In this document: positions 5,143 to 30,737 of the stretch, piece by piece | Numbering within the stretch: position 1 is the stretch's first letter | Layout of the letters: each line of letters opens with the position of its first letter | Source of the DNA: a virus | DNA: 44,253 bases | IMG/VR virus record: IMGVR_UViG_3300014720_002916 | Coordinates: 1-44,253 of that record | Direction: 5' to 3' (one strand) | Program-made: the position numbers and the translations under genes | Notes under the pieces: generated by a model | What the model saw: the letters and a program-made list of their open reading frames with translations, nothing else | Told to the model about the DNA's origin: nothing | Database searches by the model: none

Positions 5143-5382
5143 TGTGTTTATATTAGACAAAACAAAAAATGTGCTTTATCTGGTTTAGACATTTCCTTCC
5201 CTCCTGCATGGGGAGCTAAATCAAAAACACAAATCACAGCTTCTTTGGATAGGATCGATTCAGCTAAAGGGTATGTGAAAGGTAATCCTCAATGGGTACA
5301 CAAAACAATTAATAGCATGAAAATGGATATGACAGACCAAGAATTTATAAAACTTTGTAAAATGGTAGCTAAAAACTCATGA
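5143..5382 (+). pseudogene. HNH endonuclease C-terminal remnant
   Basis: Right after the kinase stop, the same frame encodes about 79 residues without any start codon before the conserved part. They contain KKCALSGLDISF, ASLDRIDSAKGYVKGNPQW and VHKTINSMKMDM, the C-terminal half of the widespread phage HNH nuclease family, with its Cys and D-R-x-D plus G-N-x-Q-W elements. The usual about 50-residue N-terminus is missing; the only overlapping ATG (5142, a TAATG junction) is in another frame and meets a stop after four codons. The ORF ends in an ATGA overlap with the next gene. I interpret it as a decayed, N-terminally deleted free-standing HNH homing nuclease. An ATT start at 5152 or stop readthrough from the kinase are less likely alternatives. 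Confidence 0.75.
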
Positions 5383-6419
5383 TAATAACATATTTTCGTA
5401 GTTCATCGTACAATACTCATAGTCTTTGCCAACAGCAATATTTTCTTGAATATGTGCTAGGTTGGAGAGGTCCGTCAGGACAAAAAGCAGATAAAGGAAC
5501 TATAACACATAAAGTTTTAGAAATATTAGCCGTTATCAAAAAAGCTCAACAAGATAAAAAAAGATATATACTGGATGATGTAGTTGGTCAGATAGATACT
5601 GAAAACTATAGTCTAGATACTATTAATAAAATGGTTTACGAGTATTATGTCAAAGCTAGCCCTCATCATAAATGGACAGAAAAAGATGCCAAAGACTGTA
5701 AAGCATGGGTTGATAAGGCTATTACTCTTAATAATGGTATGTTTGATCCTAGAAATAGAGATATTCTAGAACCAGAACAACACTTCGATTTCGAAATAAA
5801 AAAACCGTGGGCAAAATATTCTTATGATACATCAGAAGGAAAACTAGAAGGATATTTAGCTCTAAAAGGAACCATAGACCTAGTAACCAAAGTTGGGGAC
5901 GATACCATAGAGGTAATAGACTGGAAAACCGGTAAAAGATTAGACTGGGCTACTGGTCAAGAAAAAACCCAAGAAAAACTTGAAAACGACCCACAGCTTA
6001 TGATATACTACTATGCTATCAGGCACCTGTATCCAGAAATTAAACACATAATATTCTCTATATATTTTATTAATGATGGTGGTCCTTACTCGATATGTTT
6101 CGATCAATTTGACATGCATAAGACTGAAGATATGCTTCGTAGAAAATTCGACATTATAAAAAATACAAAAAGACCTTTATTAAATAAAAGCTGGATGTGT
6201 AGCAAGTTATGTCATTTTGGTAAAACAACATTTGAAAACACTCATATAGAACCGTTACAAGAATATCGCTCTGGTCAAACTTGTACATTGGGTTCCACTA
6301 TGACAAAGTGCGAACAGGTTAAACACGACATCGATTTGCATGGAATGCCTGATGTGGTAAACAATTACAAAAATAAACAACATTCATTTGGTTTCTATAA
6401 ATCCCCAGGCGAGGCTTGA
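5379..6419 (+). CDS. RecB/Cas4-like PD-(D/E)XK exonuclease
   Basis: A 346-residue nuclease of the RecB/AddB/Cas4 type, probably a DNA end-resection exonuclease for recombination or replication. Motifs in order: GTITHKVLE with H44, GTIDLV with D167, IEVIDWKTGK with D181 and K183 (the D-x-K catalytic core), and a Q-motif-like helix DPQLMIYYYAI. Cysteines at C17 near the N-terminus and C274, C278, C302 and C311 near the C-terminus have the split arrangement that in Cas4 and AddB holds a 4Fe-4S cluster, although spacing here is not canonical. The start overlaps the HNH remnant by four bases and the gene ends just before the polymerase. Confidence 0.82.
   Translation: MIITYFRSSSYNTHSLCQQQYFLEYVLGWRGPSGQKADKGTITHKVLEILAVIKKAQQDKKRYILDDVVGQIDTENYSLDTINKMVYEYYVKASPHHKWTEKDAKDCKAWVDKAITLNNGMFDPRNRDILEPEQHFDFEIKKPWAKYSYDTSEGKLEGYLALKGTIDLVTKVGDDTIEVIDWKTGKRLDWATGQEKTQEKLENDPQLMIYYYAIRHLYPEIKHIIFSIYFINDGGPYSICFDQFDMHKTEDMLRRKFDIIKNTKRPLLNKSWMCSKLCHFGKTTFENTHIEPLQEYRSGQTCTLGSTMTKCEQVKHDIDLHGMPDVVNNYKNKQHSFGFYKSPGEA
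6411..6414 (+). promoter_or_regulatory. Ribosome binding site fixing the dnaE start
   Basis: GAGG lies seven bases before ATG 6422. It favours this ATG over the TTG two codons upstream, which sits on the preceding gene's stop codon. Confidence 0.55.
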
Positions 6420-6421
6420 AT

Positions 6422-8314
6422 ATGTCTTCTAAAATTTATGTACCTCTACACGCTCACTCACATTATAGTTTATTAGACGGCATCAGTAAACCTAATCAAA
6501 TAGCGGAAAGGTGCAAATCTAATGGAATAACATCCTGTGCATTAACTGATCATGGTTCTATATCAGGAGCTGTTTCTTTTTACAAAGAAATGAGATCAGC
6601 CGGGATTAAACCAATTTTGGGATGTGAAATGTATATATCCAAGCAAACATCTAAGAATAAAACTAAAAATAATGCTGATTTATCTCATATGCTGGTATTA
6701 GCGAAAAATTTAACAGGTTGGCACAATCTGATTAAACTAGTGTCTACTTCTAACTTTGAAGACAACTACTATTACAAGCCCAGACTTTCATTAGATGAGT
6801 TTTCAAATCTGTCATTAGACGGGCTACTATGTATAACGGGTCATGCTGGATCAAATTTAGCCGATGCTATTATGGATAATCCAGAAACAGGGTCACTAGA
6901 TCCTGACTATATCAATAAAACAAACAGAATTATTAGTCAATTAAAAAATTTATTTGGTGCCAATAATATCTTTCTAGAGGCACAGTTAATGGATAAAGAA
7001 TATTATACCAATCAAATAAAATTAACAGAAATAATAAGAGATTTGGGTAAGAAACATAACCTTAAGGTTATCGCTACCAACGACGCCCACTATGCTGAAA
7101 AAGAAGATGCTATAGATCAAAGAGTATTATTATGCAATACTTTAAAAACTACTATACCGGAAATTAATAAAAAAATCCTGAATAATGAAAGTGTGCCTTT
7201 AGGATGCTTTTTTAGATCGGATAATTTTTATATATTGTCTCCCGATGAAATGAACGCATTGCACACCGAGGAAGAAATAGAGAACACTCTATATGTTGAT
7301 AGTCTATGTGAAAATTATGATATTTTAAAGAAACCACAGCTACCAAAATTTATAGACCAAGAAGATGAAAGATTAAGACAGCTATGTAGACAGGGTTGGT
7401 TGGATAGGGGAATGAACAATCTATCTAAAGAACAACAAGATATATATGTAGAAAGAATCAAAGAAGAACTAGGCGTTTTACAGGGAGCGGGTTTGTCTGG
7501 CTATTTCTTAATTGTTCAAGATATTGTGAACTATGTTAGATCTCAAAATTTATTACCCGGCCCAGGTAGAGGTAGCGCCGCTGGGTGTTTAGTTTCATAC
7601 CTGATAGGTATCACATCTGTAGATCCGATTAAATATAATCTACTATTCGAAAGATTTTATAATGCTGGTAGAAATACATCAGATAGAATTTCCATGCCAG
7701 ATATAGATATTGACGTTCCTATGACTTATAGAGATCAAATTATTCAATATATTAAAGACAAGTATGGTGCTCAAAACGTATCACAAATGATTACTTTTAA
7801 TACTCTAAAGGGAAGAGGGGCTCTAAAAGAAGTATTGAGAGTATACAACAATATAACATTCGATGAAATGAATCAAATTACTAAAAATATACCAGAAGAA
7901 TCTAAGATTGCCGATGATCTTCAAGAAATGAAAGAAGACACCGGAGAAGCATCAATTATAAGATGGGCTTTAGAAAACTCCCCAGAAAAATTCAGAGATT
8001 GGTGCGAATTACAAGAAGACGGTACATGCACAGGACCATTTGCTAAAAGATTTGAACAAGCTATGAGATTAGAAGGTATCAAATGTACTCAATCCAAACA
8101 TGCCGCAGGAATAGCTATATCTGCTTCTAGTCTTAGTGAGATATGCCCAATGGTGTATGATACTAAAACAGGTAACACGATAGCCGGTATGGAAATGCAA
8201 GATTTAGAGTCTTTAGGTATTGTTAAGTTTGATATTTTAGGCATAGGTATGCTAGATAAAATTATGTATATACAGTCTTTATTAAAGGAGAATAGTCAAT
8301 GTCAAACAGCGTAA
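6422..8314 (+). CDS. dnaE: DNA polymerase III alpha, N-terminal part (split gene)
   Basis: The N-terminal 630 residues of a bacterial C-family replicative polymerase. The PHP domain opens with HAHSHYSLLDG (H10, H12) and has LTDHG (41-45) and ILGCEMY. The palm carries GPGRGSAAG and MPDIDID; D427 and D429 match E. coli D401 and D403, and the third catalytic Asp is D604 in VKFDILGIG. Homology stops about 20 residues later, after MYIQSLLKEN, and six unrelated residues precede the stop. These are read from sequence that also forms the ribosome site and start of the next ORF. Thus all three catalytic aspartates are here, while the rest of the fingers, beta-binding region and OB domain are in a second ORF at 11783. 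Both halves keep full motif conservation, so the polymerase is probably active as two chains. Confidence 0.95.
   Translation: MSSKIYVPLHAHSHYSLLDGISKPNQIAERCKSNGITSCALTDHGSISGAVSFYKEMRSAGIKPILGCEMYISKQTSKNKTKNNADLSHMLVLAKNLTGWHNLIKLVSTSNFEDNYYYKPRLSLDEFSNLSLDGLLCITGHAGSNLADAIMDNPETGSLDPDYINKTNRIISQLKNLFGANNIFLEAQLMDKEYYTNQIKLTEIIRDLGKKHNLKVIATNDAHYAEKEDAIDQRVLLCNTLKTTIPEINKKILNNESVPLGCFFRSDNFYILSPDEMNALHTEEEIENTLYVDSLCENYDILKKPQLPKFIDQEDERLRQLCRQGWLDRGMNNLSKEQQDIYVERIKEELGVLQGAGLSGYFLIVQDIVNYVRSQNLLPGPGRGSAAGCLVSYLIGITSVDPIKYNLLFERFYNAGRNTSDRISMPDIDIDVPMTYRDQIIQYIKDKYGAQNVSQMITFNTLKGRGALKEVLRVYNNITFDEMNQITKNIPEESKIADDLQEMKEDTGEASIIRWALENSPEKFRDWCELQEDGTCTGPFAKRFEQAMRLEGIKCTQSKHAAGIAISASSLSEICPMVYDTKTGNTIAGMEMQDLESLGIVKFDILGIGMLDKIMYIQSLLKENSQCQTA
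8285..8290 (+). promoter_or_regulatory. Ribosome binding site inside the dnaE 3' end
   Basis: AAGGAG, eight bases before ATG 8299, encodes Lys-Glu of the polymerase N-part and at the same time serves the following small ORF, so the breakpoint of the split coincides with a translation start. Confidence 0.6.
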
Positions 8315-8478
8315 CATTTGGTTCATTAGCCGTTAATTCCGCTTTTGTATATAACGGTGTTAATTGTGTAAAAACAGAAACGGTAAGAGTGTCATGCTGC
8401 AAAACTGTTAATGCTGTGAATACTCAGAGTTCAGAAAGAATTTACATACCCGATGACGCATCTGTTCAAGTAAATTAA
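8299..8478 (+). CDS. Small conserved-type phage protein with CC-x-x-x-N-A motif
   Basis: A 59-residue ORF with a strong AAGGAG site. Its pattern, TFGSLAVNSAFVYNG then VRVSCCKTVNAV then IYIPDDASVQV, resembles a group of small phage proteins that begin with a predicted beta-barrel strand and carry a Cys-Cys pair (residues 33-34) followed by Asn-Ala. I know no function for that group. The same pattern recurs inside the downstream 863-aa protein at residues about 192-252, suggesting a common small domain. It starts 15 bases inside the end of the dnaE N-part. Confidence 0.7.
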   Translation: MSNSVTFGSLAVNSAFVYNGVNCVKTETVRVSCCKTVNAVNTQSSERIYIPDDASVQVN

Positions 8479-8506
8479 TTATAGTTAATAGGAATTAGTT
8501 TTAGGA

Positions 8507-11098
8507 ATGCCTCATACTTTAGAGATATTAGACGGTAAGTTATATGCGTATGGAGATAATTCTTTTGGCCAACTGGGGTTAGGCCACAATAGAAGAGTTA
8601 TGGAGAAATCCATAGTATTAACAGACACACCCAGCGACAACATATCGTGGATAAATTATGCTGTGGGTCGCTTTCATTCTGTTGGGTTAAAACAGGATAA
8701 TTCTCTATGGGTTTGGGGAGATAATAGATTTGGTCAATTAGCACAAGATATTAATGTAGAATTTTCTAATAAACCTATAAAAATAAATATCCCTCAATTA
8801 GAAAATATAACTAAAAAAATAGAATTAATTACTGGTCATTATTTCACTCTCTTCTATCAATACTTGGAAAAGGGTTATGGTTTTGGAGAATTTGAAAACT
8901 TTGATTCTGATTTTGTAGGCCAGTACAGAGAGATAACCCCTCTAATACCATCAAACGGTGTTAACAGCTGGGTTACTATAGATACCGGCCCCAAAACTAT
9001 AGTTGGTTTAAATGGTCAGGGCGGATATAAATACTCGGACTGGTCTGGAGAACTTTTTTCAAAAACATACGTGAGATATGAATCTCTTAAATTAGGAGAT
9101 ATATTTACATTATACGATCCAGGCAATAGGGATAGGGCTTTGTATAAAAAGGTAAGAACTTTTTCTAAAGGAAGAGGATGTTGTCCTGTTAATGCATTAT
9201 GTCTACATAGAATGTATAGAGAATTAGTAAGTAATGTTCCTCCAAATATTTTTATATTAGAGAGTCAAATTAGTGTTTTTGATATGTTAGATCCTGAAGC
9301 TAGAGAAGAGTTTGGCAAACCACTCTTATCTGTTCGTGAAAAATATGGTACAGATTTTATTTTCAAATCTGCAATTTCTCGTCATGCTAGTTTATCCAAG
9401 TATAAAGGCATCGATCCGTGGACAATGAATGCTATGTTTATGATGACTAACTCTATAAACACATTAGATATGATACTATATGATAGTTTATATTTCTCTG
9501 ATGATTTAAACGAACCATTAAATGAACAAACACTAGTAGAAAAAATATCAGCTAAAGAAATTTTTGAGCCATATAATGAATTTGATTTACCTCCTTATTT
9601 ATTGCAAAAATCTGGTTACGAGGTAAAGTTATCTAGTTATACTCTAGGAAATGATATGGCTCTTAGTTCTTTAAAAGATACATATTTTAATACAGATCAA
9701 GATATGAACAATCGTAAAGTGTATTCTACTCCTTTCGGTGGTACTAGTAGAAATACTCAGTGGTCTTCTACTCAGTATCCGTATCTATATAAAAAAAATC
9801 CTATTACAAATAAGCCTATGAGATTTACTTTTAGTACAAGATACGGCTATGGTATACCGGTTTATAGATCCAAAACAGGCAAGCTAACAGATTTTGATAG
9901 TGATAATCCTGCTGAGATTTATTATGACGATAACAAAAAACATCAAGGAATACTAGGAGCCCCATATGACGGAGAACCCAAATATATTAGGGATTTGGAA
10001 CAAGACGATTCTTTGTATACCAAAGAACTGCTAACACATATTATAGATCTTCCCATAGATGAAACGGGCCAGATAATATCTGCTAAATATATTGTTAATA
10101 GTCCGTATCTGGTTAGATACTCAATGGAACTTACTGGTAGTTCTTTTAAACAAGCTTTTATGGATCCTACCAAAAGAATTTCTACTAAATATAATGGCAA
10201 TATTAATACTGTTATTGAAGACACTGCTGGAGATCCTATGATGTTTTATACTCTAGTACCGGACCCAACATACACAGGTATAGCGGCATCACCTCCAAAA
10301 ATTCAAGTCTTTTATATTGGTGATGTCACTAGGTCTTTGATAGAAATTTTATTAGACGAAGACACACCAGCAAGAGAGGTTCACGATTATTTTGGAATTA
10401 GTAAGGTTACATTGGATCAAATGTGGACGCTGGTAAAAAATGCAACTTATCCTTATAAAACTGACGAAAAAACAGCATTTGCCAGACTCAGCTCCTTGTT
10501 CTATAATAAACTAAAGGATCAGCCAGTTATCAATGAGCTGGCGGAGGATGTTGTACAAACAGGTATAGACACTAGTAATAGAGATCAATTTTATAACTAC
10601 GGCACTTTGCAAAAAACTTGTAATACAGGAAGAGTTATAACTTGTTTCTTTTTTGAAGGAAGTATTAACTTACCTTATCTCGGTGCTTCTTGTTGGACAG
10701 ATAGGGCTGATAGATCAAAATTAATTATTTTCGGGAATTATATAGAAAATTTTAAACCAGGAAAAACAATATTGAGATACGAAACTTGGTCTGGTGATTC
10801 TTCTAAAACGAAAGCCGGAAATGATGTAAAAACTTTTACTCCACTTGGGGGTGTTATTATCGCTAAAGACGCATATCAAGAACATTCCACAACTGTTGAC
10901 ATTATCGAAGCATCCTATGACCCATCCGAATATAGAACAATTGTACAATTGAGGAATCCATTTTTAAATAACTATCTTATGGGTAATCTTTTATTTGGTA
11001 AAGACGCTTCCTACCAAGCTATGCCATTCATATATTTTAATTCTATAGCCTCTATTACGGAGAAACTACAGAGCGTACCAGCTCCATTAGTAACATGA
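8507..11098 (+). CDS. 863-aa RCC1-repeat protein, probable virion protein
   Basis: The N-terminus has at least two RCC1 beta-propeller blades: KLYAYGDNSFGQLGLGHN (11-28) and SLWVWGDNRFGQL (66-78), with the linking VGRFHSVGLKQD. Residues about 192-252 form a small domain with SLKLGDIF and GCCPVNAL that matches the pattern of the 59-aa neighbour. The rest, about 600 residues, is Tyr/Asn/Thr-rich with no motif I recognise; a segment REVHDYFGISKVTLDQMW could be a helix-turn-helix-like element. RCC1 blades otherwise occur in this window in the fibre-like protein at the right edge, so a virion or appendage role is plausible. It is the only virion-like gene on the plus strand and lies between the halves of dnaE. 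The stop overlaps the exonuclease start (ATGA). Confidence 0.75.
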   Translation: MPHTLEILDGKLYAYGDNSFGQLGLGHNRRVMEKSIVLTDTPSDNISWINYAVGRFHSVGLKQDNSLWVWGDNRFGQLAQDINVEFSNKPIKINIPQLENITKKIELITGHYFTLFYQYLEKGYGFGEFENFDSDFVGQYREITPLIPSNGVNSWVTIDTGPKTIVGLNGQGGYKYSDWSGELFSKTYVRYESLKLGDIFTLYDPGNRDRALYKKVRTFSKGRGCCPVNALCLHRMYRELVSNVPPNIFILESQISVFDMLDPEAREEFGKPLLSVREKYGTDFIFKSAISRHASLSKYKGIDPWTMNAMFMMTNSINTLDMILYDSLYFSDDLNEPLNEQTLVEKISAKEIFEPYNEFDLPPYLLQKSGYEVKLSSYTLGNDMALSSLKDTYFNTDQDMNNRKVYSTPFGGTSRNTQWSSTQYPYLYKKNPITNKPMRFTFSTRYGYGIPVYRSKTGKLTDFDSDNPAEIYYDDNKKHQGILGAPYDGEPKYIRDLEQDDSLYTKELLTHIIDLPIDETGQIISAKYIVNSPYLVRYSMELTGSSFKQAFMDPTKRISTKYNGNINTVIEDTAGDPMMFYTLVPDPTYTGIAASPPKIQVFYIGDVTRSLIEILLDEDTPAREVHDYFGISKVTLDQMWTLVKNATYPYKTDEKTAFARLSSLFYNKLKDQPVINELAEDVVQTGIDTSNRDQFYNYGTLQKTCNTGRVITCFFFEGSINLPYLGASCWTDRADRSKLIIFGNYIENFKPGKTILRYETWSGDSSKTKAGNDVKTFTPLGGVIIAKDAYQEHSTTVDIIEASYDPSEYRTIVQLRNPFLNNYLMGNLLFGKDASYQAMPFIYFNSIASITEKLQSVPAPLVT

Positions 11099-11799
11099 AA
11101 AATAAAATTTGCGTTTTTGATTTTGAAACAGATGGTTCGGATCCCACTGTTTGTAGTCCTGTACAGATAGCTGCTATTATTATTGATCCCTATACATTAG
11201 AGGTGGTAAAGGATTCTGAATTTAACATATCAGTTAAACCCGATCTATTAGAAAAAGACCCTGATCATGATTATAGCTCCAGCGATATATTAGATTTTCA
11301 TTCTAGGGTCAGAGGATGTTCTTCTGAGGAAATACTTAACTCATGGAAAAATAGTGTATCCCAGCAACAGGCTTGGCAAGCATTCAACAGTTACCTATTG
11401 ATGTATCACTATAGTAATAGTGGTAAAAAAAGCCAATTTACAGCACCTATAGCAGCCGGGTATAATATACATAGGTTCGATCTTAAAATTGTGGATAGAT
11501 ATAGTAAGCAATTCGGTTATGTCAATAAAGAAAATACGTCTTCTATTTTTTATCCTAGAGACGTTTTGGATATTATGAATTTAGTATTTTATTGGTTTGA
11601 AAATATCTCAGAGGTCAAAAGTCTAAGTTTAGATAATATGAGGGATTATTTGGGTATTTCAAAAGATGGGGCTCACGATGCCCTAAAAGATGTTAAAGAT
11701 TGTGCTGGAATATTATGTCGATTTTTAAAATTACATAGGAATTTATCTCAAAAAGTTAAGTTTAAGGACGCTTTTTTAAATTATGCTGAAGCTAGATAG
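11095..11799 (+). CDS. dnaQ: DnaQ-like DEDDh 3'-5' proofreading exonuclease
   Basis: A 234-residue exonuclease of the DEDDh class. Catalytic residues are visible in order: D9 and E11 in VFDFETDG, D129 in GYNIHRFD, and H194 plus D199 in GAHDALKDVKDC (H-x4-D). It probably supplies proofreading for the phage polymerase, since the alpha-subunit N-part has a PHP domain but no exonuclease insertion. Its start overlaps the RCC1 gene by four bases and its end overlaps the second dnaE ORF by 17, so exonuclease and polymerase C-part are likely translated together. A long insert between the E and D motifs (residues about 45-110) is larger than in E. coli epsilon. Confidence 0.9.
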   Translation: MKNKICVFDFETDGSDPTVCSPVQIAAIIIDPYTLEVVKDSEFNISVKPDLLEKDPDHDYSSSDILDFHSRVRGCSSEEILNSWKNSVSQQQAWQAFNSYLLMYHYSNSGKKSQFTAPIAAGYNIHRFDLKIVDRYSKQFGYVNKENTSSIFYPRDVLDIMNLVFYWFENISEVKSLSLDNMRDYLGISKDGAHDALKDVKDCAGILCRFLKLHRNLSQKVKFKDAFLNYAEAR

Positions 11800-13333
11800 T
11801 ATAGATACTAATTGTCCAAAAACCTGGGCTCTTTTATCCGAAGGTAACACAAAAGGATGTTTCCAATTAGAATCTAGGCTTGGTCAATCTATGTCTAAGA
11901 AACTTAAACCTTCTAATATAGAAGAGTTGGCGGCTTTGATCTCTATTATGAGGCCGGGATGCTTGGAAGCTGTCAGAGATGGTAAAACAGTGAGTCAGCA
12001 TTTTATAGATAAGAAAAACGGACAGGAATCTATTGATTATTTTCATACATCTCTAGAATCTATATTAGAGAGTACATATGGAGAAATGGTTTATCAAGAG
12101 CAGGCAATGCAAATAGCACAAAAAATAGCAGGCTTTAACCTACAAGAAGCCGACGAACTAAGAAAAAGTATCGGAAAGAAAAACACCCAGCTTATGGCAA
12201 AAGTTAAAGGTAAGTTTTTATTAGGAGCCAAAAAACTAGGTATGGTTAAAGAATCAGAAGCCGAACAAATTTTTAGCTGGATTGAAAAATCACAGAGATA
12301 CTCATTTAATAAATCACATGCTGTAAGTTATGCTATCAATGGTTATTTATCGGCTTATTATAAAGCTCATAATCCATTAGTTTTTTTTACATCTTATCTT
12401 AGATTCTCTAAGGATAAAATCAATCCACAAGAAGAAGTAAAAGAACTTGTTAACAATGCTATAGAGATGGGCATAAATGTTTCAGGTCCATCGATTGTTA
12501 AACTAAATAAAGAATTTGAATTATTTGAAGACACAATAGTTTTTGGTTTCACAAATATTAAGGGTGTTGGCGAATCGGTATATGACAAGTTAATCCTTTT
12601 AATAAATGAAAATAATTTTAATTATAAGAAAGACAATGTTTGGAAATTATTGATATTGATACTTTCCAATATAAATATTAATGCAGCAAAAGCTATCGTG
12701 ACATCTGGGGCATTAAACATATATAAAAAGTCTAGAAAGGAATTATGTTTTTGCTTAGATGTTCTAAGTAATTTGACTAAGAAAGAGAAAGAGTACATCC
12801 ATACGCTAGACCTGAATAAATTTAACACTTTTTTAGGTATTATGGAGCATGTCTATCTTAACTATAAACTAACAAAAAATAGAAAAGAAATCTTTCATAA
12901 CCATATTAATAATTTAAAAAATCCTCCATATTCATTAATGGATAATCTACAATGGATTGCAGAGAACGAAACATATCTATTTGGAGTATCTATAACTTGT
13001 AATAAATCTGATGCTTATTATAGCGAAATCAATACAATATCCTGTCAAGAATATAAACATCAGATAGCAAAGAAAAAGCTATCAGTTATAGCAGAAATAC
13101 AGAGAATTAGTGTTATAAAAACCAAAAAGGGACAGAATCCAGGAATGGATATGGCTTTTTTAGAACTAGGGGATAGTACAGGAACAATAAAGTCGGCAGT
13201 ATTATTCCCTGAACAATATCAAAAATATAAAAATTTTCTCACAGACGAAGCTGTTTTGGTTTTTTCTGGTACAAAATCCAGTAAGAGCGATAACAGTTTT
13301 ATCATAGAAAGATGCGTGATGCCGAGTTCTTGA
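11783..13333 (+). CDS. dnaE: DNA polymerase III alpha, C-terminal part (split gene)
   Basis: The 516-residue second half of DnaE. Homology starts at once with NCPKTWALLSEGNTKGCFQL, the segment that follows the last catalytic Asp in intact enzymes. It continues with LAALISIMRPGCLEAVRDG, TYGEMVYQEQAMQIAQ, ELRKSIGKKN, and YSFNKSHAVSYA (fingers and nucleotide-binding segments), VFGFTNIKGVGE (helix-hairpin-helix region) and an OB-like C-terminal domain with AFLELGDSTGTIKSAVLF. No intein, signal or linker precedes it. The protein lacks a recognisable extended tau-binding domain, as is usual for phage forms. The start ATG lies in the exonuclease 3' end and there is no strong Shine-Dalgarno site, suggesting translational coupling. 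Confidence 0.95.
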   Translation: MLKLDSIDTNCPKTWALLSEGNTKGCFQLESRLGQSMSKKLKPSNIEELAALISIMRPGCLEAVRDGKTVSQHFIDKKNGQESIDYFHTSLESILESTYGEMVYQEQAMQIAQKIAGFNLQEADELRKSIGKKNTQLMAKVKGKFLLGAKKLGMVKESEAEQIFSWIEKSQRYSFNKSHAVSYAINGYLSAYYKAHNPLVFFTSYLRFSKDKINPQEEVKELVNNAIEMGINVSGPSIVKLNKEFELFEDTIVFGFTNIKGVGESVYDKLILLINENNFNYKKDNVWKLLILILSNININAAKAIVTSGALNIYKKSRKELCFCLDVLSNLTKKEKEYIHTLDLNKFNTFLGIMEHVYLNYKLTKNRKEIFHNHINNLKNPPYSLMDNLQWIAENETYLFGVSITCNKSDAYYSEINTISCQEYKHQIAKKKLSVIAEIQRISVIKTKKGQNPGMDMAFLELGDSTGTIKSAVLFPEQYQKYKNFLTDEAVLVFSGTKSSKSDNSFIIERCVMPSS

Positions 13334-13402: not shown

Positions 13403-13777
13403 ATGAATATTGTGATTTTACGCGGCAATCTAGCTAGGGATCCAGAGTTAAGAACTATCAATGGCGGAACAGACAGGGAGACATCGGTAGTTAATTTTAC
13501 CGTGGCTGTATCTCGTGACTTTGTAAAGTCTGATGGAACGAAGGATAAGATTACGTCTTTCATCAACTGCGAAGCATGGGATAGTGGAGCCCAGCTTATC
13601 GCTTCTTCTTTCAAGAAGGGCGATTTGGTATTTGTCGAGGGTTCTATTAGAAATGACTCGTGGGAAAAGGACGGGGTTAAGCATAGCACTCTTAAGGTTA
13701 GAGTTAATAATTTTTCTAAGATTGCTAAGGTTAACAAGACCACTCAGAACGCATCCACCGAATCTGTGGCCTTCTGA
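13403..13777 (+). CDS. ssb: Single-stranded DNA-binding protein
   Basis: Coats single-stranded DNA at the fork and in recombination. The 124-residue protein has the OB-fold SSB layout: MNIVILRGNLARDPELR, VVNFTVAVSRDFV, TSFINCEAWDSGAQLI, FKKGDLVFVEGSIRNDSW and STLKVRVNNFSKI. The disordered tail is only about 15 residues and ends in ESVAF; the acidic DDDIPF-like tip of bacterial SSB is absent, though a terminal Phe remains. It has its own promoter, a consensus ribosome site and a terminator, and uses more G/C-ending codons than its AT-rich neighbours, as expected of a highly expressed gene. Confidence 0.95.
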   Translation: MNIVILRGNLARDPELRTINGGTDRETSVVNFTVAVSRDFVKSDGTKDKITSFINCEAWDSGAQLIASSFKKGDLVFVEGSIRNDSWEKDGVKHSTLKVRVNNFSKIAKVNKTTQNASTESVAF

Positions 13778-19945: not shown

Positions 19946-20406
19946 AACAATCGATTGGTTTTCTATCTATAGAAATTGATAATAGTACAGAATCTAATTT
20001 TATTGTTAACTATATAAATAGTTTAGCAACAAAATATCCATATACTGATATGATACTATTTAATTCCGTATACAACAGACAAGATGAATCATTAAACAAA
20101 TTCTCGACATTACACATTAATGAAGCAAAGTTTTTTACATCCCCAATTATTGCTTTTAATCTAAAAAATATGCTTTTTCTAAAACATTGTATTTGTAAGA
20201 AAATTTTCTACGCCTTAAGGCCCGAGTGGTTAGTAATGAACAAAAGTATTAACTATACAGACCTGAAGGCTTTATACGAAGAATCTTGCGATGTTTTAAT
20301 GATTCCTAACCAAGAGGATCAAGAATTATATTCTTTGTGTTGGAAGAAACCGGAGGTTGTCGAGCCATCAAATTATCAGAAAGTAATGGAATATGCAAAA
20401 CTATAA
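19942..20406 (+). CDS. Unknown 154-aa protein in glycosyltransferase cluster
   Basis: A short alpha/beta protein beginning with strand SIGFLSIEIDNSTESNFIVN. It includes YTDMILFNSVYNR, PIIAFNLKNMLFLKH and DVLMIPNQEDQELYSLCWK, and ends in VVEPSNYQKVMEYAK. The order of strands, with a putative nucleotide-binding turn near IPNQED, is compatible with half of a GT-B fold, but no family is recognised. It overlaps its neighbours on both sides (4 and 14 bases), so it belongs to the same translation chain. Confidence 0.4.
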   Translation: MKQSIGFLSIEIDNSTESNFIVNYINSLATKYPYTDMILFNSVYNRQDESLNKFSTLHINEAKFFTSPIIAFNLKNMLFLKHCICKKIFYALRPEWLVMNKSINYTDLKALYEESCDVLMIPNQEDQELYSLCWKKPEVVEPSNYQKVMEYAKL

Positions 20407-21190
20407 CAAATTAACAGATACCGATAAAAAAAAGATAATTCAAGATCTTTATGTGACCAAACAATTAAGCTTTGCAGACATTGCTCAAAACTGTGGTACT
20501 TATGCTAATAAAATTAGAAGAGACGCACAAAAATTTAAAATACCAATAAGAGATAAAAGCTCTGCTCAAAAGAACGCTTTACAAAAAGGAAAGCATAAAC
20601 ATCCAACCAAAGGTAAAACCAGAGATGCCTCAGTTAAAACAAAAATAGGCATGTCCATAATGAACCATTGGCAAAATTTATCAGAAAACGAGTTAGCCCA
20701 AATAAAACAAAAAGCAAAAGACAATTGGAACAAACTGTCGGAAGATGAAAAAGAAAATATGAAACACAGCGCCCAAGAAGCAGTAAGACAATCTAGTAAA
20801 ACAGGATCAAAGCTAGAGAAGTATCTACTGAATAAACTCTTGGAGAATGGTTGGAAGGTGGATTTTCATAAGGAGCAAATGCTACTAAATACCAAGTTGC
20901 AAATAGACCTGTTTCTACCTACCATAAATACAGCAATAGAGGTTGATGGACCTTCTCATTTTGTTCCTGTATGGGGTGATGAATCTCTAAAAAAGAATAT
21001 CAAGTATGATAATAAAAAAACAGGACTAATATTAGGTAAAGGTTTGGCCTTGATTAGAATAAAACAGCTCAAGGATTTTTCTCCAACTAGAGCTGAATTA
21101 ATCTATACTAAATTAGAAGAAACCCTTAAGAACATAAAGAAAAATTTTCCGGACCCTAGTAAAAGATCAATTAATATAGAGGATGAATAA
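20393..21190 (+). CDS. HTH plus Vsr-fold nuclease, possible homing endonuclease
   Basis: A 265-residue protein of three parts: an N-terminal helix-turn-helix-like region LSFADIAQNCGTYANKIRRD, a Lys-rich middle (residues about 60-140) with GKHKHPTKGKT and repeated helices around NWNKLSEDEK that resembles NUMOD-type DNA-binding modules, and a C-terminal Vsr/PD-(D/E)XK nuclease with KLEKYLLNKL, LQIDLFLP (Asp), AIEVDGPSHF (E-x-D, His) and a last strand LALIRIKQLK. The architecture is that of free-standing homing endonucleases of the EDxHD/Vsr kind. It sits between the sugar genes and the annealing protein, overlapping the upstream gene by 14 bases and the downstream one at a TAATG. Confidence 0.65.
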   Translation: MQNYNKLTDTDKKKIIQDLYVTKQLSFADIAQNCGTYANKIRRDAQKFKIPIRDKSSAQKNALQKGKHKHPTKGKTRDASVKTKIGMSIMNHWQNLSENELAQIKQKAKDNWNKLSEDEKENMKHSAQEAVRQSSKTGSKLEKYLLNKLLENGWKVDFHKEQMLLNTKLQIDLFLPTINTAIEVDGPSHFVPVWGDESLKKNIKYDNKKTGLILGKGLALIRIKQLKDFSPTRAELIYTKLEETLKNIKKNFPDPSKRSINIEDE

Positions 21191-22980: not shown

Positions 22981-23444
22981 CTAGTTGGGTCTACCGGCCC
23001 CCATTTCCCAACAGGACAAGATTGATCTGCCCAAGCTAGTTTATTCATATAGATTTTTTCTCTAACTAGATTACATCCACATTTAGTGCATGTATTATTT
23101 TTGAAAAACTCACACTGAGTACATATATTGTATCTATAATGTATTTGTTCATCTGTACATTTGGGACTACCAGCCAAAGCGTGTTTAGTGGCAGATTTAG
23201 TAAAGTTAAGAACTTTTTCCATTAGAGAAGGAGGTTGTAGTGGTGTTTCTACTTTTTTATCTTGTACCTCGACTTCAGAGACTCTAATACCATAATTTTC
23301 TGGATTATTTAAACTCATTTTTTTAGGACATATCATTATGGGTTTCTCTAATCCACTATAAGATATAAGTATTCCGCACGTATTGCATCTATATTCATTG
23401 TGATCGACTCTAACAAAGTCACACGTAAAATCATAAATATTCAT
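22977..23444 (-). CDS. 155-aa cysteine-rich zinc protein at end of tail module
   Basis: Two cysteine-rich modules. The N-terminal one, DFVRVDHNEYRCNTCGILI..ICP, is a small ribbon; the C-terminal one, NICTQCEFFKNNTCTKCGC, then CPVGKWG, is a short Cys cluster of the type found in small phage proteins near tail genes. Between them is a helical linker. Start ATG overlaps the stop of the 2288-aa gene (ATGA), so it is the last gene of the minus-strand tail operon. It may help fold or assemble the tail proteins; function is unknown to me. Confidence 0.65.
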   Translation of the reverse strand: MNIYDFTCDFVRVDHNEYRCNTCGILISYSGLEKPIMICPKKMSLNNPENYGIRVSEVEVQDKKVETPLQPPSLMEKVLNFTKSATKHALAGSPKCTDEQIHYRYNICTQCEFFKNNTCTKCGCNLVREKIYMNKLAWADQSCPVGKWGPVDPTS

Positions 23445-26400
23445 AGGGCAGATCTTTCTCTATCAAAGAATCCAGAATTATCATACTCATACGGCACCCA
23501 CTTATAATGATTTTGTGTTACAAATGTGTCAACTCCAAAGGTATCTTGAGTTGATATCTTCTGTCTCTCTCCAAACCAAGCTCTAAATATCATCTCATTA
23601 AGCACTTGATAAAATGGAGGAGTCTTATTAATTCTAGTTCTTTCATTATAAAGATTTTTAGGATTTGTTTCATGGCATTCCCAGAAATATAATTGACTTT
23701 GATTGACAGCATTTTGACCAAGCGTTATTGTAAAATCTGTTTGTATTTTTCTAGGTATATATTTAAATCTTACTCTAATCTCTTCGCTATTTCCTAAAAG
23801 CTCCCTTGCTGATATAAAACCGTGTGCGGCTTCGGGAACATAATATCTAAAAGCCAAATCAAGTCTGACAATAGAATCATTCTTAAACTCCCCACAGCCC
23901 ATATAAAAATTTTGAGTAGTCTCTCTTAATTCATAATTTACTTGTGGACATTTTTGATTACCAGACTCCAAATAGAAAACAGATAAATTTTGTGACGAGG
24001 ATGTTGTTCCAGCAGCAGCATCTTCTGGGGTTAACGGCCCGACCATCTGAGTATTACATACGTTTTGACAAGCTAAAGAAGCCCAATTAGCGCCAAGATA
24101 ATCACACCCCTGCTTAATAGAATATGGTATCTTAGAACTAGAAGCTAGTGCTCCACTAGCATCCATAGGTATAGAAATCCAATAATAATTATCGTTATAA
24201 TTCAGAATATTATTTCTGGCTACAGCGCCTCCTTCTGATGCTTCTTCTGTTGATGTCGGAGCATTTGATCCTGTCGCTCTAGAGAAAATATTGCTTGGTC
24301 CAAGTTTTACTTTTGAAAAAATATTCTCAAATTGTATCACTCCACTAGATAATGTAGTAGACTCTAATAAAAAGTCCTTATCGGCAGTTCTTAGATTGTT
24401 AACATCTTCATAAATTCTTTCTTTATTATTCCATCTATATATTATATATGTTTCATTAGGTATAATTTCTTGTTTATAATATCTTCCTGCTGTTCCTACT
24501 TTTGGTAAAACCTGACCGCTTGGTACTACAACAATATCTCCAGACGGATTATCATTATTCCAGACCCCAGACAATAATGCTGGATCTAAAGTTAAATCAT
24601 AATATGGCAAATAATATTTTGCTATATTTTTATCTAAATAATACTTTTCATATTTAGAAGAACCGAGCTCAAAATCAAATAACTTTCTATTTGCGTCTGT
24701 AATACTAAAGATATTATGAGCATAAATTCTATTTTTAATATCCCTAATATCTGTTGGATAGCCAGTATATCTAATATATTCATTATTAACAGACTGAGCA
24801 TATGGATTTGGTGGCATGTTAGAATATTTAATTCTAGGATCATATTTGAATCTAACAATTTTATTAATATTATTATTGTTAATTATTTTAATTCTACCAC
24901 AATAATCAGCTTTACCAAAATGATAATCAAAATTATGTAGTCCTAGTAGGTCTGGCGTTTTTACTATTGGGTGTATTTGAGGATTATTTTTGTCAGATCC
25001 CCAGCCATATGAACCCTCCGAGAACAATTGGTCTTTTATGTATGTAGATATCAAATTACCCATGTTTAAACTATCGGTATTTCGCCATTTTCCGAAAGCC
25101 ACAAGTGGATCATTTTCTGTATATGTTGAGTTGTATAACATCACCGTATTATTATTTATTTTTTCAATATGACCACTTACAAATTTATCTTGTCCTGACA
25201 ATAGATTTGTTCCTAAATATAAATGAGTGGTAGTGCCAGGTAATAACTGTCTATCCAAATCCCCGTCTGTTAAAACCAATGGGGCATTACTAGCTCTATC
25301 GTTTATCTCATTAAAAAAACTATTATCTATAACACTAGGAACATATTGAGGATTTTTTAGAGGAGGAACAATAATATTTCCTATATTAAACACTCCGCTT
25401 AATTTAATTGGAGAATATACAGTCGTTCCATTCTGATTCTGGGCTCTTAGAACAGTATATACTAATCTAACAGGCTCATTTCTTGTAAATGAATAAAAAG
25501 CTCTTGCCCCATCTATAGCAGCATATTCTACTCCAAACCTATCTTTAGATAGTCTGAATTGAAAATCAAAACTGGGATAATTTTCGTAGCCTTTGTACAC
25601 TAAATATTTAAACTTAGTATTTTCTAATACTGGTGAGCACTGTTCTGTATACTTAAAAATATCAGCTTCAATAGTATACCATAAACAATTTCTATATTTT
25701 ACATCTACTTCTACTTTATTGGGTATTCCATATTTATAATCTTTAGACAAAGACAAGCCCTTCATATAACCATAACCTCTTAGAAATGAGGCTGTGGTGC
25801 CTTCTACTTGAAGATAGCCCTTATTAGCTAAATATGCTCTATTTTTAGCTTTGATAGACACGTTATCAGTAAATGGATTTGGTGTCCATACGCCTCCAAA
25901 AGCCCCGTACGGCATATCATAACCCATGGCCATCATCTGATTCATAATACTAATATGAGTAAGTAAACCTACTAATGGAAAATGTATAGGAGGTATAAAT
26001 ACTGGTTCTGGAGGTATTATGGGTTTGATAAACTCTCTAGGACCGGGTGGATCTGGTTGCTCTTGACAAGGAAAATCTCCAAATTCAGTTACCTGAGAAT
26101 TATATGGAGCATCTATATTAATAGGAGGGATTAGGTGTTTTTTATTAGTAAAGTCCGCTATAAAACAATAACCACTTGGATATGCTTCCGGATTTTGAGG
26201 AAAATCAAAAGCTCTAGCATTATAAGCTAATAAATTATAAGGAGTAATAGCGGTACCTGTGGTGCCACCCATAGTATCATAATTAGGAACAGGACAACCC
26301 GTACAAACCTGAAGTTGAAAACAGGTTGAACCGGTATCTAGTCCGCCCATATCAGATATTTGCAAACCCCAAGTATTGTCTGAATCAGGAGATACAGCCT

Positions 26401-29400
26401 CGCTGTCTGTGCTAAATTCTCCAAATCCTCTTATAATACCGCTAGAACCTATATAATAATCCAAACTGTCTTCTGGTAATACAATATCATTACTTACGGC
26501 ATACTTTAAATCTCTTCCATAATTATTAAATGTTAAATGAAAGTTTTTTTGATAGTTTAATAAGCTATTATTAAATAATAAATTTCTTGGTGATGTTCTT
26601 GCCTGCATAGATAATGGACCCATCCAGCTGTTATTCTCTTTAATTCGCAATTCCAATAGTTTTTTAATTTCAGCTTCTGGTGGAGGCGGCTCTTGGCATT
26701 GTCTGGTATGAAGATCATAAGCTATAGTTTTATCGACTATATTTCCTGCTATAAATCTATATTCTCTAGGATCAAATAACGCTATTCTTAAATCTTTAGG
26801 AAAAGGATGATTTAAAAACGATAATTTAGCTGATATTAATGATATAAAAGATACATCATTATTAATATTAGTTGTTATAATATTAGGAAATACTCTGAAT
26901 CTTTTTAACTGATCAGCGTCGTATTCTTTCATAGGATCTAGTATTACTAGATAGTCTTTACCTTTTAATGGTTTAGGTTTACACTCTTTCATAGCGTCTG
27001 CTGTAGCACCTGTAACCAACTCGGGGTAGAACCTTTTTCCATATGAACCATATGTTAGACAATTAGAAATTCCACTACCTATAACAGGGGTTTTATTTTT
27101 TAATGAAGCATTACTGCCAATCAAAAATTTATTATCTATCCAGCCTTGATTTGGATGAAAAAATCCTTTACGGAATACCACTTCATTGTAAAAATATTGT
27201 GGAGATAAGAAACATTTAACCGAAGACTTATCCCTTAAAGATCCTGCTCCTGCTTCTTGAAAAGCCAGAGTTCTTTGAACAGTATTTTCTGTCAAGTATT
27301 TGGAGTTTTTTGCAGTAAATGGTAGGGTGTTTTCTGGTAGAACTTCGTAAAGTTGTGTTATTGGGTTTTTTTGAATAGGTTTGGGATGGTTTAATATTGT
27401 TACTCCTAGGCTTTCTACATCTTCTTTTCTGTGGGCTCCGTAGGCCACAATCGGTGGAGAGAATTGAGTAGTTAGCAGATGTATTTCCTCATTAAATTCG
27501 TATCCTATAACCTGGTCGTATACCCTGGTTTCATCCGACCTTATTGGTACTTTATTTGGAAAGGGTCTAAAGCCGGAGGATTCATACGTGTCTATACGTA
27601 AATTTTCTATCTCTATATCATACAGCCTAACATGCAAAAATTCATTACATTCAAACTCAATGAGCACCTTGTTTGGTCTTGTAATATTGGGGCCTGGCAA
27701 TTTTTCAACAAAGTATTGAGCATTTTGAATTGGCACTGGACCAGTTCTATAATTCCAATAAAGACTCTTGCCTATTGTAAATAGGAATAAATTTGGAAAT
27801 ACCACGCCCCCTAAACGATGAAAATATACTTCTTTAATATCTGGATAGATAGTTTTATTATTAGTGTTAGCTTCTAAAAATCTATCATCTAATAAATTTA
27901 AACTATTTTTAAATACTGGATTATCTTTATTTAAATCCTCTATCAGTTCCTGTTTACTTCGTAAGGCTTTATCGAAATCCCATGTCCAATTATTCAATCT
28001 TTTGGTTAATCTGTATGGTTCTCCATTAATTAATCCCAAATTATAAGTTTCTGAGGGGTCTCTTAAAGAATTATTAAGTGTTTTTTGTAATTCTATCACC
28101 TTATAAAATTGCTGATTTACCCCAAAAGCATCATACATCGAAGTAAGAGTACTATTGTACAATTCAGATTTATTAGCATCAAAACCTAAAAAATCATAGA
28201 TCATAATTTTTTCTTGTGCTAATCCACCCCCAGGAGCTGCTGCTGTTGTAAAAGTATCATCGGTAATAGAAAGAACCAATGATTCATTTTCTCCAGGATC
28301 AAATTCGGTATCGTCTGGTACTTTTAATTTAGTATAAACTTCTGTTCCTCCGACATTAATTCTTTGTTTATACCAAAATTCCTCTGTTTGAATACCTAGT
28401 CTTCTTTTATGTTCAAAATCCATTTTAAGATAAACTTGAGGTACCGAGATAGTCTTAGAAGACATCATTTTTAATGATTGTCCAGAATTAAACTGTAAAT
28501 AAAAGTTTTTTGAAACATTATCAAATACAGTTAAAGCTAAAGCTAAATCTTTTTTAGTTTTAATAATTCTTAAATTATCTTGTATAGACTGAACATCGTT
28601 ATGTTCTATGTTATTGTATAAAGATCTAGATACTTTATCAAAAATAGCTGATGTTATATCATCATTAACATATATGTTTTTAACAATAGAAATGGTATTA
28701 TTATCTGGTTGAAAAATAACACCGTTATCTATTTCTATTCGAACATTAGTTATTTTTTTCCATTGTGTTTTAGCAATATTTACATTATTAATAGAGATTG
28801 TAATATCATCATCAGCAAAAACCCCTGCGGGTAAATCGTATATTCTACTATTGATAGGACTGATAATTGGTGGTAAGGTCTTTAATGTTAATCTACCATA
28901 AACATCTTCTATTTGATTTTTTAAAGTAATAAAATTACCAGTTTTATATACATTTAAATCTATAGTGTCTAAAAATTTATTGTATGCGTATATAGCAGCC
29001 ATATCCACCAAAGGCCCTGTGGATAAAATTCTTGCTAAATTTTTTAAACCGACATACTTGTTTCTCTTTTCTTTGTTCATATAAATATGAATAGGTAAAT
29101 TCTCTTCTGTAGTACCTAATCCATCAGCTTCTATAAGCTTTTCTAGGGTTGTATTATTACTTAAGTTCAATAGACTGGTTAAACAGCCTCTGTATTTTGA
29201 TAGATCGTTGGTTATAAGATGGGTTTTTGGATAATACTCAAAAATAGACTCGGGTTCTTCTGTATTGGGCTCTCTCTTTATAGATTGTATTAAATAATAT
29301 GAATCATATTCAATAGTACAAAAACCATCAGATAGATATATATCTACTCCTGGTAAAAATCTCTTTGGCCCCATACAAACCCATAAACCCTCTGTAACCT

Positions 29401-30307
29401 TATATACATCCTCAGAAACTTTTCCAGAAGCATTGTTGCGAATTACAAGAACATAGTCTCCTTCTTTTAAACCAGAATGCAAACCATATAATGGTATTAT
29501 ATTAGTATTATTTGCTTGAGAAATATATGTATGATCTTCGTGTTGTTCCCTTAACTCTATTAGTTTACCATCAATTCTTACTAATTGTTTTGGTAAAATA
29601 GCAGTATTTCTTGTTTCGTTAAATCCTCCCATCGGCATATTAAAAGTTTGCTTGATTGTCGTTTCTCTTCCTATGTCGTAATGTCTATACCAAAATAGAA
29701 CACCCATAACACTACATGTTCCTAGTGTTTTAGGTATTTTCCAGTCTATTTTAGCTTGTAATCCCGGATCAATGGTCCAGCTTTTAAAAAATGGAGTAGA
29801 TATGGTGATGAAATTTTCTAAGCCTAAACCGGCCTCACAATCTTCATCGCTACCAGTATCAGAAAACTCTATATTTGTATTTTTGGCACCAGTTATAGGA
29901 TCGACATACATAATACATGGGCGCCACACACCACTAATAGTAGGATTAAAAGGAGTAATATAATTATTTAGATCATAGTTTAATGTTATATCATCTTCTC
30001 TTATCCTGTCCCAGTCTAGATCAGCTTTTAAACCTTTAAACCAAAAATTAGAGCTTTCTGTTGATAAAACCGTAGACTCTGTTACGTTGGTGTTGGTTTT
30101 TTTGTTGAGAAAACTTATAGGTTCGACAGTAGCTACTGGTGGAGGAACATTGATCCTAGTAGGTGGAACTTGGGCGGTTAGAATTTCTAAAGAGTTATAT
30201 ATATCCGTATCATAAGGTGGAAAAGATCTAATAATATTATTATTAGCGCTATCTATAACTCCTGCCGCATTATTTGTAAATGCGCTAACGGTATCAAATC
30301 TATCCAT
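23441..30307 (-). CDS. 2288-aa giant virion protein of unknown function
   Basis: An unbroken 6.9-kb ORF, mostly beta-rich, Asn/Tyr/Pro/Thr-rich and low in cysteine, with no signal peptide and no transmembrane segment. No enzyme motif is visible. The N-terminal part contains a Pro-rich linker VPPTRINVPPPVATVEP and a possible beta-sandwich start near residue 90. A Pro-rich segment PDPPGPREFIKPIIPPEPVF occurs about residue 1425. The gene follows a TAG-overlapping junction (the upstream gene stop and this ATG overlap) and is the largest in the tail module. Most likely a tail, baseplate or fibre component of a large phage, but I recognise no named family. Its size and absence of repeats suggest several fused globular domains. 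Confidence 0.8.
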   Translation of the reverse strand: MDRFDTVSAFTNNAAGVIDSANNNIIRSFPPYDTDIYNSLEILTAQVPPTRINVPPPVATVEPISFLNKKTNTNVTESTVLSTESSNFWFKGLKADLDWDRIREDDITLNYDLNNYITPFNPTISGVWRPCIMYVDPITGAKNTNIEFSDTGSDEDCEAGLGLENFITISTPFFKSWTIDPGLQAKIDWKIPKTLGTCSVMGVLFWYRHYDIGRETTIKQTFNMPMGGFNETRNTAILPKQLVRIDGKLIELREQHEDHTYISQANNTNIIPLYGLHSGLKEGDYVLVIRNNASGKVSEDVYKVTEGLWVCMGPKRFLPGVDIYLSDGFCTIEYDSYYLIQSIKREPNTEEPESIFEYYPKTHLITNDLSKYRGCLTSLLNLSNNTTLEKLIEADGLGTTEENLPIHIYMNKEKRNKYVGLKNLARILSTGPLVDMAAIYAYNKFLDTIDLNVYKTGNFITLKNQIEDVYGRLTLKTLPPIISPINSRIYDLPAGVFADDDITISINNVNIAKTQWKKITNVRIEIDNGVIFQPDNNTISIVKNIYVNDDITSAIFDKVSRSLYNNIEHNDVQSIQDNLRIIKTKKDLALALTVFDNVSKNFYLQFNSGQSLKMMSSKTISVPQVYLKMDFEHKRRLGIQTEEFWYKQRINVGGTEVYTKLKVPDDTEFDPGENESLVLSITDDTFTTAAAPGGGLAQEKIMIYDFLGFDANKSELYNSTLTSMYDAFGVNQQFYKVIELQKTLNNSLRDPSETYNLGLINGEPYRLTKRLNNWTWDFDKALRSKQELIEDLNKDNPVFKNSLNLLDDRFLEANTNNKTIYPDIKEVYFHRLGGVVFPNLFLFTIGKSLYWNYRTGPVPIQNAQYFVEKLPGPNITRPNKVLIEFECNEFLHVRLYDIEIENLRIDTYESSGFRPFPNKVPIRSDETRVYDQVIGYEFNEEIHLLTTQFSPPIVAYGAHRKEDVESLGVTILNHPKPIQKNPITQLYEVLPENTLPFTAKNSKYLTENTVQRTLAFQEAGAGSLRDKSSVKCFLSPQYFYNEVVFRKGFFHPNQGWIDNKFLIGSNASLKNKTPVIGSGISNCLTYGSYGKRFYPELVTGATADAMKECKPKPLKGKDYLVILDPMKEYDADQLKRFRVFPNIITTNINNDVSFISLISAKLSFLNHPFPKDLRIALFDPREYRFIAGNIVDKTIAYDLHTRQCQEPPPPEAEIKKLLELRIKENNSWMGPLSMQARTSPRNLLFNNSLLNYQKNFHLTFNNYGRDLKYAVSNDIVLPEDSLDYYIGSSGIIRGFGEFSTDSEAVSPDSDNTWGLQISDMGGLDTGSTCFQLQVCTGCPVPNYDTMGGTTGTAITPYNLLAYNARAFDFPQNPEAYPSGYCFIADFTNKKHLIPPINIDAPYNSQVTEFGDFPCQEQPDPPGPREFIKPIIPPEPVFIPPIHFPLVGLLTHISIMNQMMAMGYDMPYGAFGGVWTPNPFTDNVSIKAKNRAYLANKGYLQVEGTTASFLRGYGYMKGLSLSKDYKYGIPNKVEVDVKYRNCLWYTIEADIFKYTEQCSPVLENTKFKYLVYKGYENYPSFDFQFRLSKDRFGVEYAAIDGARAFYSFTRNEPVRLVYTVLRAQNQNGTTVYSPIKLSGVFNIGNIIVPPLKNPQYVPSVIDNSFFNEINDRASNAPLVLTDGDLDRQLLPGTTTHLYLGTNLLSGQDKFVSGHIEKINNNTVMLYNSTYTENDPLVAFGKWRNTDSLNMGNLISTYIKDQLFSEGSYGWGSDKNNPQIHPIVKTPDLLGLHNFDYHFGKADYCGRIKIINNNNINKIVRFKYDPRIKYSNMPPNPYAQSVNNEYIRYTGYPTDIRDIKNRIYAHNIFSITDANRKLFDFELGSSKYEKYYLDKNIAKYYLPYYDLTLDPALLSGVWNNDNPSGDIVVVPSGQVLPKVGTAGRYYKQEIIPNETYIIYRWNNKERIYEDVNNLRTADKDFLLESTTLSSGVIQFENIFSKVKLGPSNIFSRATGSNAPTSTEEASEGGAVARNNILNYNDNYYWISIPMDASGALASSSKIPYSIKQGCDYLGANWASLACQNVCNTQMVGPLTPEDAAAGTTSSSQNLSVFYLESGNQKCPQVNYELRETTQNFYMGCGEFKNDSIVRLDLAFRYYVPEAAHGFISARELLGNSEEIRVRFKYIPRKIQTDFTITLGQNAVNQSQLYFWECHETNPKNLYNERTRINKTPPFYQVLNEMIFRAWFGERQKISTQDTFGVDTFVTQNHYKWVPYEYDNSGFFDRERSAL

Positions 30308-30737
30308 CGTTAATATCTCTTAAATAAAAGTTCCTTAGTCTACTAACAATTAATGAATAAGCCAAATCCAACTGTTGAGCAACCGAAGACTTGAGATTGT
30401 TATAGAAAAATACGGCTGTTCTAATATTGGTTTTATTACTTATATTAGACAAGTGCCCAGATACAATAATATCTTTTTTCAAAATTTCTTTTTTTTCTTC
30501 CATTAAAGATAATAGTTCATTATACAATTCTGTGCCTATTTTAGGGTCTAGACCTCTATAAGCCTGTTCATTAACTATTGCTCTTTTAAGAGAAGTTTTA
30601 TATTCTTCATATTTTGAATCTATCACCAATAAAACACTATTTATAAATCTAATATCATTTACTACCACATTAGAGTTTGGGTTGGTGAGAATCTCATAAT
30701 AGTCTGGACTAAGAACTTCTCTTTCTTGATTATTCAT
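30300..30737 (-). CDS. 145-aa helical virion-module protein
   Basis: A helical, cysteine-free protein of 145 residues starting MNNQEREVLSPDYYEI. I take the ATG at 30737 because it overlaps the 1049-aa gene's TAA (TAATG) and has AGGA eight bases upstream; an upstream ATG would add ten residues. Helices carry the pattern VLLVIDSKYEEYKTSLKRAI and SLMEEKKEILKKDII. Possible small tail-assembly or baseplate linker, by position only. Function unknown. Confidence 0.6.
   Translation of the reverse strand: MNNQEREVLSPDYYEILTNPNSNVVVNDIRFINSVLLVIDSKYEEYKTSLKRAIVNEQAYRGLDPKIGTELYNELLSLMEEKKEILKKDIIVSGHLSNISNKTNIRTAVFFYNNLKSSVAQQLDLAYSLIVSRLRNFYLRDINDG

Follow-up and report, generated by a model that had tools for sequence, protein, structure and literature searches.

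A bacterial-type replicative DNA polymerase encoded in two separate genes throughout a deep lineage of large phages

The C-family replicative DNA polymerase of a deep lineage of large phages is encoded by two genes that meet at the boundary between the palm and fingers domains. This split is real, old and conserved, and is ancestral to the lineage. The replicase very probably consists of two chains that are translated together from a single operon and associate without covalent joining. We infer that these chains associate physically, that they are active together as a polymerase and that they are paired with an exonuclease encoded between them.

Results

Gene layout of the window

The stretch of DNA analysed, referred to as the window, is a 44,253-base virus record from IMG/VR (IMGVR_UViG_3300014720_002916). 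Its + strand carries a replication operon, in which genes for an HNH nuclease, a DnaB-like helicase, a primase, a dNMP kinase and a PD-(D/E)XK nuclease are followed by dnaE-N, a small ORF, an RCC1-like ORF, an exonuclease gene, dnaE-C, the gene for a single-strand DNA-binding protein (SSB) and genes for glycosyltransferases. The dnaE-N gene (6422..8314) encodes the PHP and palm half of the polymerase, which consists of 630 aa when translated from the ATG at 6422; the TTG at 6416 is an alternative start. The dnaE-C gene (11783..13333) encodes the fingers, HhH and OB half of 516 aa. ORF calls and Pfam matches confirm the two polymerase ORFs reported in an earlier note on this DNA. The PD-(D/E)XK nuclease gene immediately before dnaE-N (5379..6419) is kept in relatives, and the SSB gene after dnaE-C (13403..13777) is usually kept. 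The small ORF (8299..8478, 59 aa) contains a conserved CC motif and overlaps the end of dnaE-N. It is followed by the RCC1-like ORF (8507..11098, 863 aa), which has RCC1-like repeats at its N-terminus, and by the gene for a DEDDh-type 3'-5' exonuclease (11095..11799, 234 aa). The start of dnaE-C falls inside the final 17 bases of the exonuclease gene, in agreement with the proposal of a two-chain C-family polymerase with an exonuclease gene coupled to its second half. The only non-coding room in the block between the halves is the 28 bases at 8479-8506.

HNH homing-endonuclease-like ORFs are located at 734-1138, right after a UvsX-like ORF at the window edge, and at 20393-21190. The minus strand contains three giant ORFs at 23441-30307 (2288 aa), 30737-33886 (1049 aa) and 33914-37987 (1357 aa), none of which has a family match in the library with which each was compared.

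Completeness of the split polymerase

Pfam assigns PHP (E 5e-40) and DNA_pol3_alpha (1e-72) to the dnaE-N protein, and DNA_pol3_finger (3e-46), HHH_6 (2e-7) and a weak OB match to the dnaE-C protein. According to these and the structural matches, the PHP, palm, fingers, HhH and OB domains of DnaE are all present in this order, shared over the two ORFs. The catalytic aspartates D427, D429 and D604 are all located in the palm of the dnaE-N protein, as had been claimed together with the PHP domain, and are invariant across 62 aligned proteins. In the sequence alignment with Taq alpha, the N-half extends to residue 638 and the C-half picks up at residue 645. The positions matching N611 and C10 are separated by 28 residues (19 + 9) in the window and by 19-30 residues, mostly 25, in intact bacterial DnaEs. 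Therefore, nothing is missing at the break, and the alignment of both ORFs to intact DnaE bears out the claim that homology is complete across it but for a few residues at the linker.

The structures predicted by AF2 for each half modelled singly have mean pLDDT values of 93.7 (N-half) and 93.5 (C-half). In structural matches, these predicted halves tile E. coli alpha (1-581 and 583-1074), the DnaE1 structure 5lew (7-610 and 611-933) and Taq alpha (5-642 and 642-1125). The cut falls between palm and fingers: the third catalytic aspartate is followed by a helix, and the break is in the linker directly after this helix. The C-half protein ends after the OB fold, with its alignment stopping at residue 1074 of E. 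coli alpha and residue 1123-1125 of Taq alpha, and no counterpart of the C-terminal tau-binding domain of E. coli alpha is aligned in the C-half by structural comparison. An extension of about 25 residues bearing a CxC motif (YTFDCGCKFP...) is present at the head of the C-half in 106 of 117 distinct relatives and absent from that of the window. It has been lost from the window's C-half.

Conservation of the split

Two profile scans of IMG/VR yielded 162 loci with both halves. In this first survey, the polymerase is split, the C-half is intact and the exonuclease gene lies between the halves at all 162 loci. Addition of a second group, which is 46-50% identical and was found via the contig L172, and of the locus L270 (41%) gave a set of 181 loci, with 117 different sequences, which fall into 103 clusters at 95% nucleotide identity. 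The order N-half, exonuclease, C-half is found at all 181 fetched loci holding both halves, so that the break that was looked for in relatives is present in every one of them. The two halves are separate ORFs with their own starts and stops at 181/181 loci, as against a single frame in 78 of the 79 bacterial DnaEs compared. The split loci all group together as a single clade (SH-aLRT 100) in a tree of 45 rows, and no intact polymerase is found within the lineage among the fetched loci. The dN/dS values, where computable, are 0.02-0.09 for both halves, indicating that strong purifying selection acts on both.

A broken gene and a split gene can look alike, and the C-half could in principle be a decaying relic, or the arrangement an assembly chimera. 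Both explanations are exceedingly improbable. A separately assembled record (L001), which is near-identical to the window, has identical junctions, which argues against a chimera. Every relative holding both halves has an intact C-half, the order is the same at all loci of the first survey, and the strong purifying selection on both halves argues against decay. Also against decay, no other polymerase is recognised in 12 large contigs. Thus, the survey, the second record and the dN/dS values refute both explanations, and neither the chimera nor the decay of the C-part that the earlier note had named as grounds for withdrawing its reading was found.

The contig L172 (JABXKB010000087.1), which carries the same split polymerase, has been assigned to a Lokiarchaeota MAG. 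Because its N-half is 93% identical to those of IMG/VR virus contigs, this contig is viral, and has either been mis-binned or derives from an archaeal virus. At another locus (L141:3205-4933), residues 425-458 are missing from the N-half, among them two catalytic aspartates, and a frame change is seen. This gap is likely an assembly or sequence error, or the mark of a dead copy.

Other polymerases and clamp in large contigs

In each of twelve contigs of 178-244 kb (G001-G012), the palm piece and the fingers piece are each present once. Neither PolA nor PolB nor a further DnaE is recognised in these contigs, which are fragments, so that absence is not proof. The beta clamp family likewise has no match in them, although a C-family polymerase is clamp-using. 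Since neither a clamp nor a counterpart of the tau-binding domain is found, processivity would have to come from elsewhere.

Possible joining of the two halves

The halves might be joined after or during expression, either by protein trans-splicing through a split intein or by RNA splicing that removes the block. Cyanobacterial DnaE is likewise encoded by two genes, but its products are joined by the pieces of a split intein, and at another site. Elsewhere in the polymerases of the present lineage (L127, L132, L161 and L270), split inteins also occur, with a nuclease gene separating their pieces. At the palm/fingers break, however, the N-half ends a few residues past its domain in all relatives inspected, without an intein-like tail, and the head of the C-half (Y-F-D-C-G-C...) in aligned relatives lacks an intein C-block ending in HN. 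An intein at this break is therefore ruled out. Group I and group II introns are argued against by the lack of any Rfam ribozyme or intron match in the window and eight relatives and by the presence of only 28 non-coding bases. In addition, the block between the halves is filled by conserved genes, and the two chains already contain every residue of the intact linker. Joining of the halves by either route is thus highly unlikely, and the absence of an intein and the near absence of room for an intron, both suggested previously, are upheld.

At three loci (L127:2957-6036, L132:2240-5319 and L161:2954-6030), the N-half is broken again between GPGRG and SAAG by a split-intein-like pair, with an endonuclease-like ORF between the pieces. 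At L270:11018-13850, it is the C-half that is broken again, between FNK and SHA, by a split-intein-like pair that encloses an ORF; the exonuclease gene of this locus is flanked by an HNH gene and a methyltransferase-like gene. Because of this extra intein-type break, the polymerase is encoded in three pieces at these four loci. In L127, L132 and L161, one break has intein pieces and the other does not.

Comparison with other split polymerases

The arrangement had been presented as an unprecedented third route to a split polymerase. This does not hold, because the same break is present in phages that have been isolated, namely Rossellomorea phage phiT1 and the mycobacteriophages Cuke and Fowlmouth, and a split PolIII alpha has been described in jumbo phages (PMC7824862). 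In the cultured Mycobacterium phage Cuke (gp86/gp87), DnaE is cut at the palm/fingers seam, as mapped at the junction, and no intein is seen. Fowlmouth (gp85/gp86) is likened to Cuke, with matching gene sizes, and MrMiyagi is similar to both, whereas their relative Indlulamithi has an intact DnaE gene. The Cuke-type phages differ from the window lineage in that their two ORFs overlap one another and no gene intervenes, and they are distant from it, at a level of about 30% identity and elsewhere in the DnaE tree. In phiT1 (gp20/gp18), the same seam is cut, with the N-half ending near reference residue 564-573 and the C-half starting at 576. Its halves are separated by a small ORF (49 aa) without an exonuclease gene, and it groups in the tree with the intact DnaE of Sundance, apart from the window lineage.

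The palm/fingers split requires three changes on the tree, and the hypothesis that all of these splits share one origin is rejected (AU p 2e-5), in a quick tree with some long branches. These results argue moderately strongly that the cut arose independently, with at least three origins. Other phage DnaEs, in phages of Bacillus, Microbacterium and Gordonia among others, are broken at other sites: ahead of the catalytic aspartates (Jayan), within the fingers and accompanied by an HNH gene (KLEB27-3), or between PHP and palm (Rachella and Suzy). The dnaE genes of phages BS-TP1 (L284) and phiST (L295) have ends that resemble those of split inteins; the pieces in BS-TP1 are separated by a gene for a Dda-like helicase, and the C piece is without annotation.

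In group 2.2 jumbo phages, a minimal PolIII alpha is split into two proteins that have been proposed to reassemble (PMC7824862). This polymerase lacks PHP and other domains, and its genes are far apart and accompanied by a family B polymerase. In contrast, the window lineage has the full PHP-palm-fingers-HhH-OB order in adjacent genes of one operon, without PolB in the 12 large contigs. In T4-like phages 25 and 44RR, gene 43 (PolB) is split, and the gp43A/B pieces of phage 25 co-purify and show polymerase activity (PMC2988022). Aeh1, which had been cited as a further example of a split DNA polymerase, has a split nrdA instead according to the same paper. The enzymes of phages 25 and 44RR likewise consist of two unjoined pieces, but they belong to family B, with a different fold and cut, and their split is described for single phages, whereas here it is the rule of a deep lineage. 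Split phage polymerases are thus already known, and this lineage is a variant of them rather than a category of its own. No paper on the split in this lineage was found in a literature search of open-licence papers.

Block between the halves

The earlier note had described a 3.5-kb block between the halves. A block of this length is present in the window, but it is not one unit, and the space in most relatives is 0.88-1.02 kb and lacks the RCC1-like ORF, which accounts for the length in the window. This shorter space contains an ORF of about 60 aa with the CC motif and the DEDDh exonuclease gene. The 863-aa RCC1-like ORF is a late insertion outside the core arrangement, because it is found only in the window's subclade (L001, L014, L094 and L095). 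It diverges fast, being about 20-37% identical to its counterparts in subclade members other than L001, and its restriction to one subclade rules it out as an essential part. RCC1-like repeats are also present in another ORF of the window (39937-44253). Other insertions, in the gaps of other members, are HNH nuclease genes (L080, L132 and L270), a methyltransferase-like ORF (L270) and a nuclease-like ORF with a further small ORF (L256 and L258). The ancestral content of the block is the small CC-motif ORF and the exonuclease gene only.

A small ORF with CC occupies this place in 106 of the 117 distinct relatives; it has no match in Pfam, PHROGs or phage records. The exonuclease matches Pfam RNase_T (1e-12). 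It has no match among solved structures when queried as a single sequence, and a weak match, nearest to PolC-type exonuclease, when queried as a profile. At 110 of 115 loci, the exonuclease stop and the C-half start are at most 30 nt apart. The metal site of the PHP domain is intact in 34 of 35 aligned main-group members and degenerate in L011 and L270, so that proofreading throughout the lineage cannot be ascribed to the PHP domain.

The presence of the exonuclease gene between the halves at all loci and of the small CC ORF in most relatives, together with the tight overlap of the reading frames, would also be expected if the exonuclease or the small CC protein were an obligatory bridge between the two chains, and the gene order reflected a fixed replicase of three or four subunits. 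This is unlikely. In phiT1 and Cuke, the same cut occurs without an exonuclease gene at this place, so that the cut itself needs none. The members represented by L172 and L256 have a different small ORF, without CC in the sequences read, and gene order alone may reflect co-translation only.

Discussion

The results are best accounted for by a replicase of two unjoined chains. The chain containing PHP and palm and the chain containing fingers, HhH and OB would fold separately and then associate non-covalently at the natural palm/fingers seam, rebuilding the active site. This association would probably occur on primed DNA, and proofreading would be supplied by the DEDDh exonuclease encoded between the halves. 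Transcription as one operon with overlapping or abutting frames would provide matched amounts of the chains and keep the nascent chains close together. The RCC1-like ORF, HNH nucleases and methyltransferase-like ORF would have been gained later in the spaces between the genes, and such insertions would have been harmless because the polymerase was already in two pieces.

It may further be speculated, though this is rather doubtful, that C-family replicases in general have a natural breakpoint at the palm/fingers seam, and that in the present lineage the replicase is an obligate multi-subunit enzyme, in which the exonuclease, and perhaps the CC protein, bridges or gates assembly, such that activity is controlled by assembly.

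For annotation, the two halves should be regarded as genes for one enzyme, neither as two polymerases nor as a broken one. The cutting of the seam on at least three independent occasions makes it a testable modular joint of C-family polymerases, for which the mycobacteriophages Cuke and Fowlmouth, as compared with the intact Indlulamithi, are tractable cultured models. In this deep, widespread and uncultured phage lineage, a large group of viruses of microbes, a bacterial-type replicase is stably encoded in two pieces that carry no intein at the break, as a rule and not as a rare accident.
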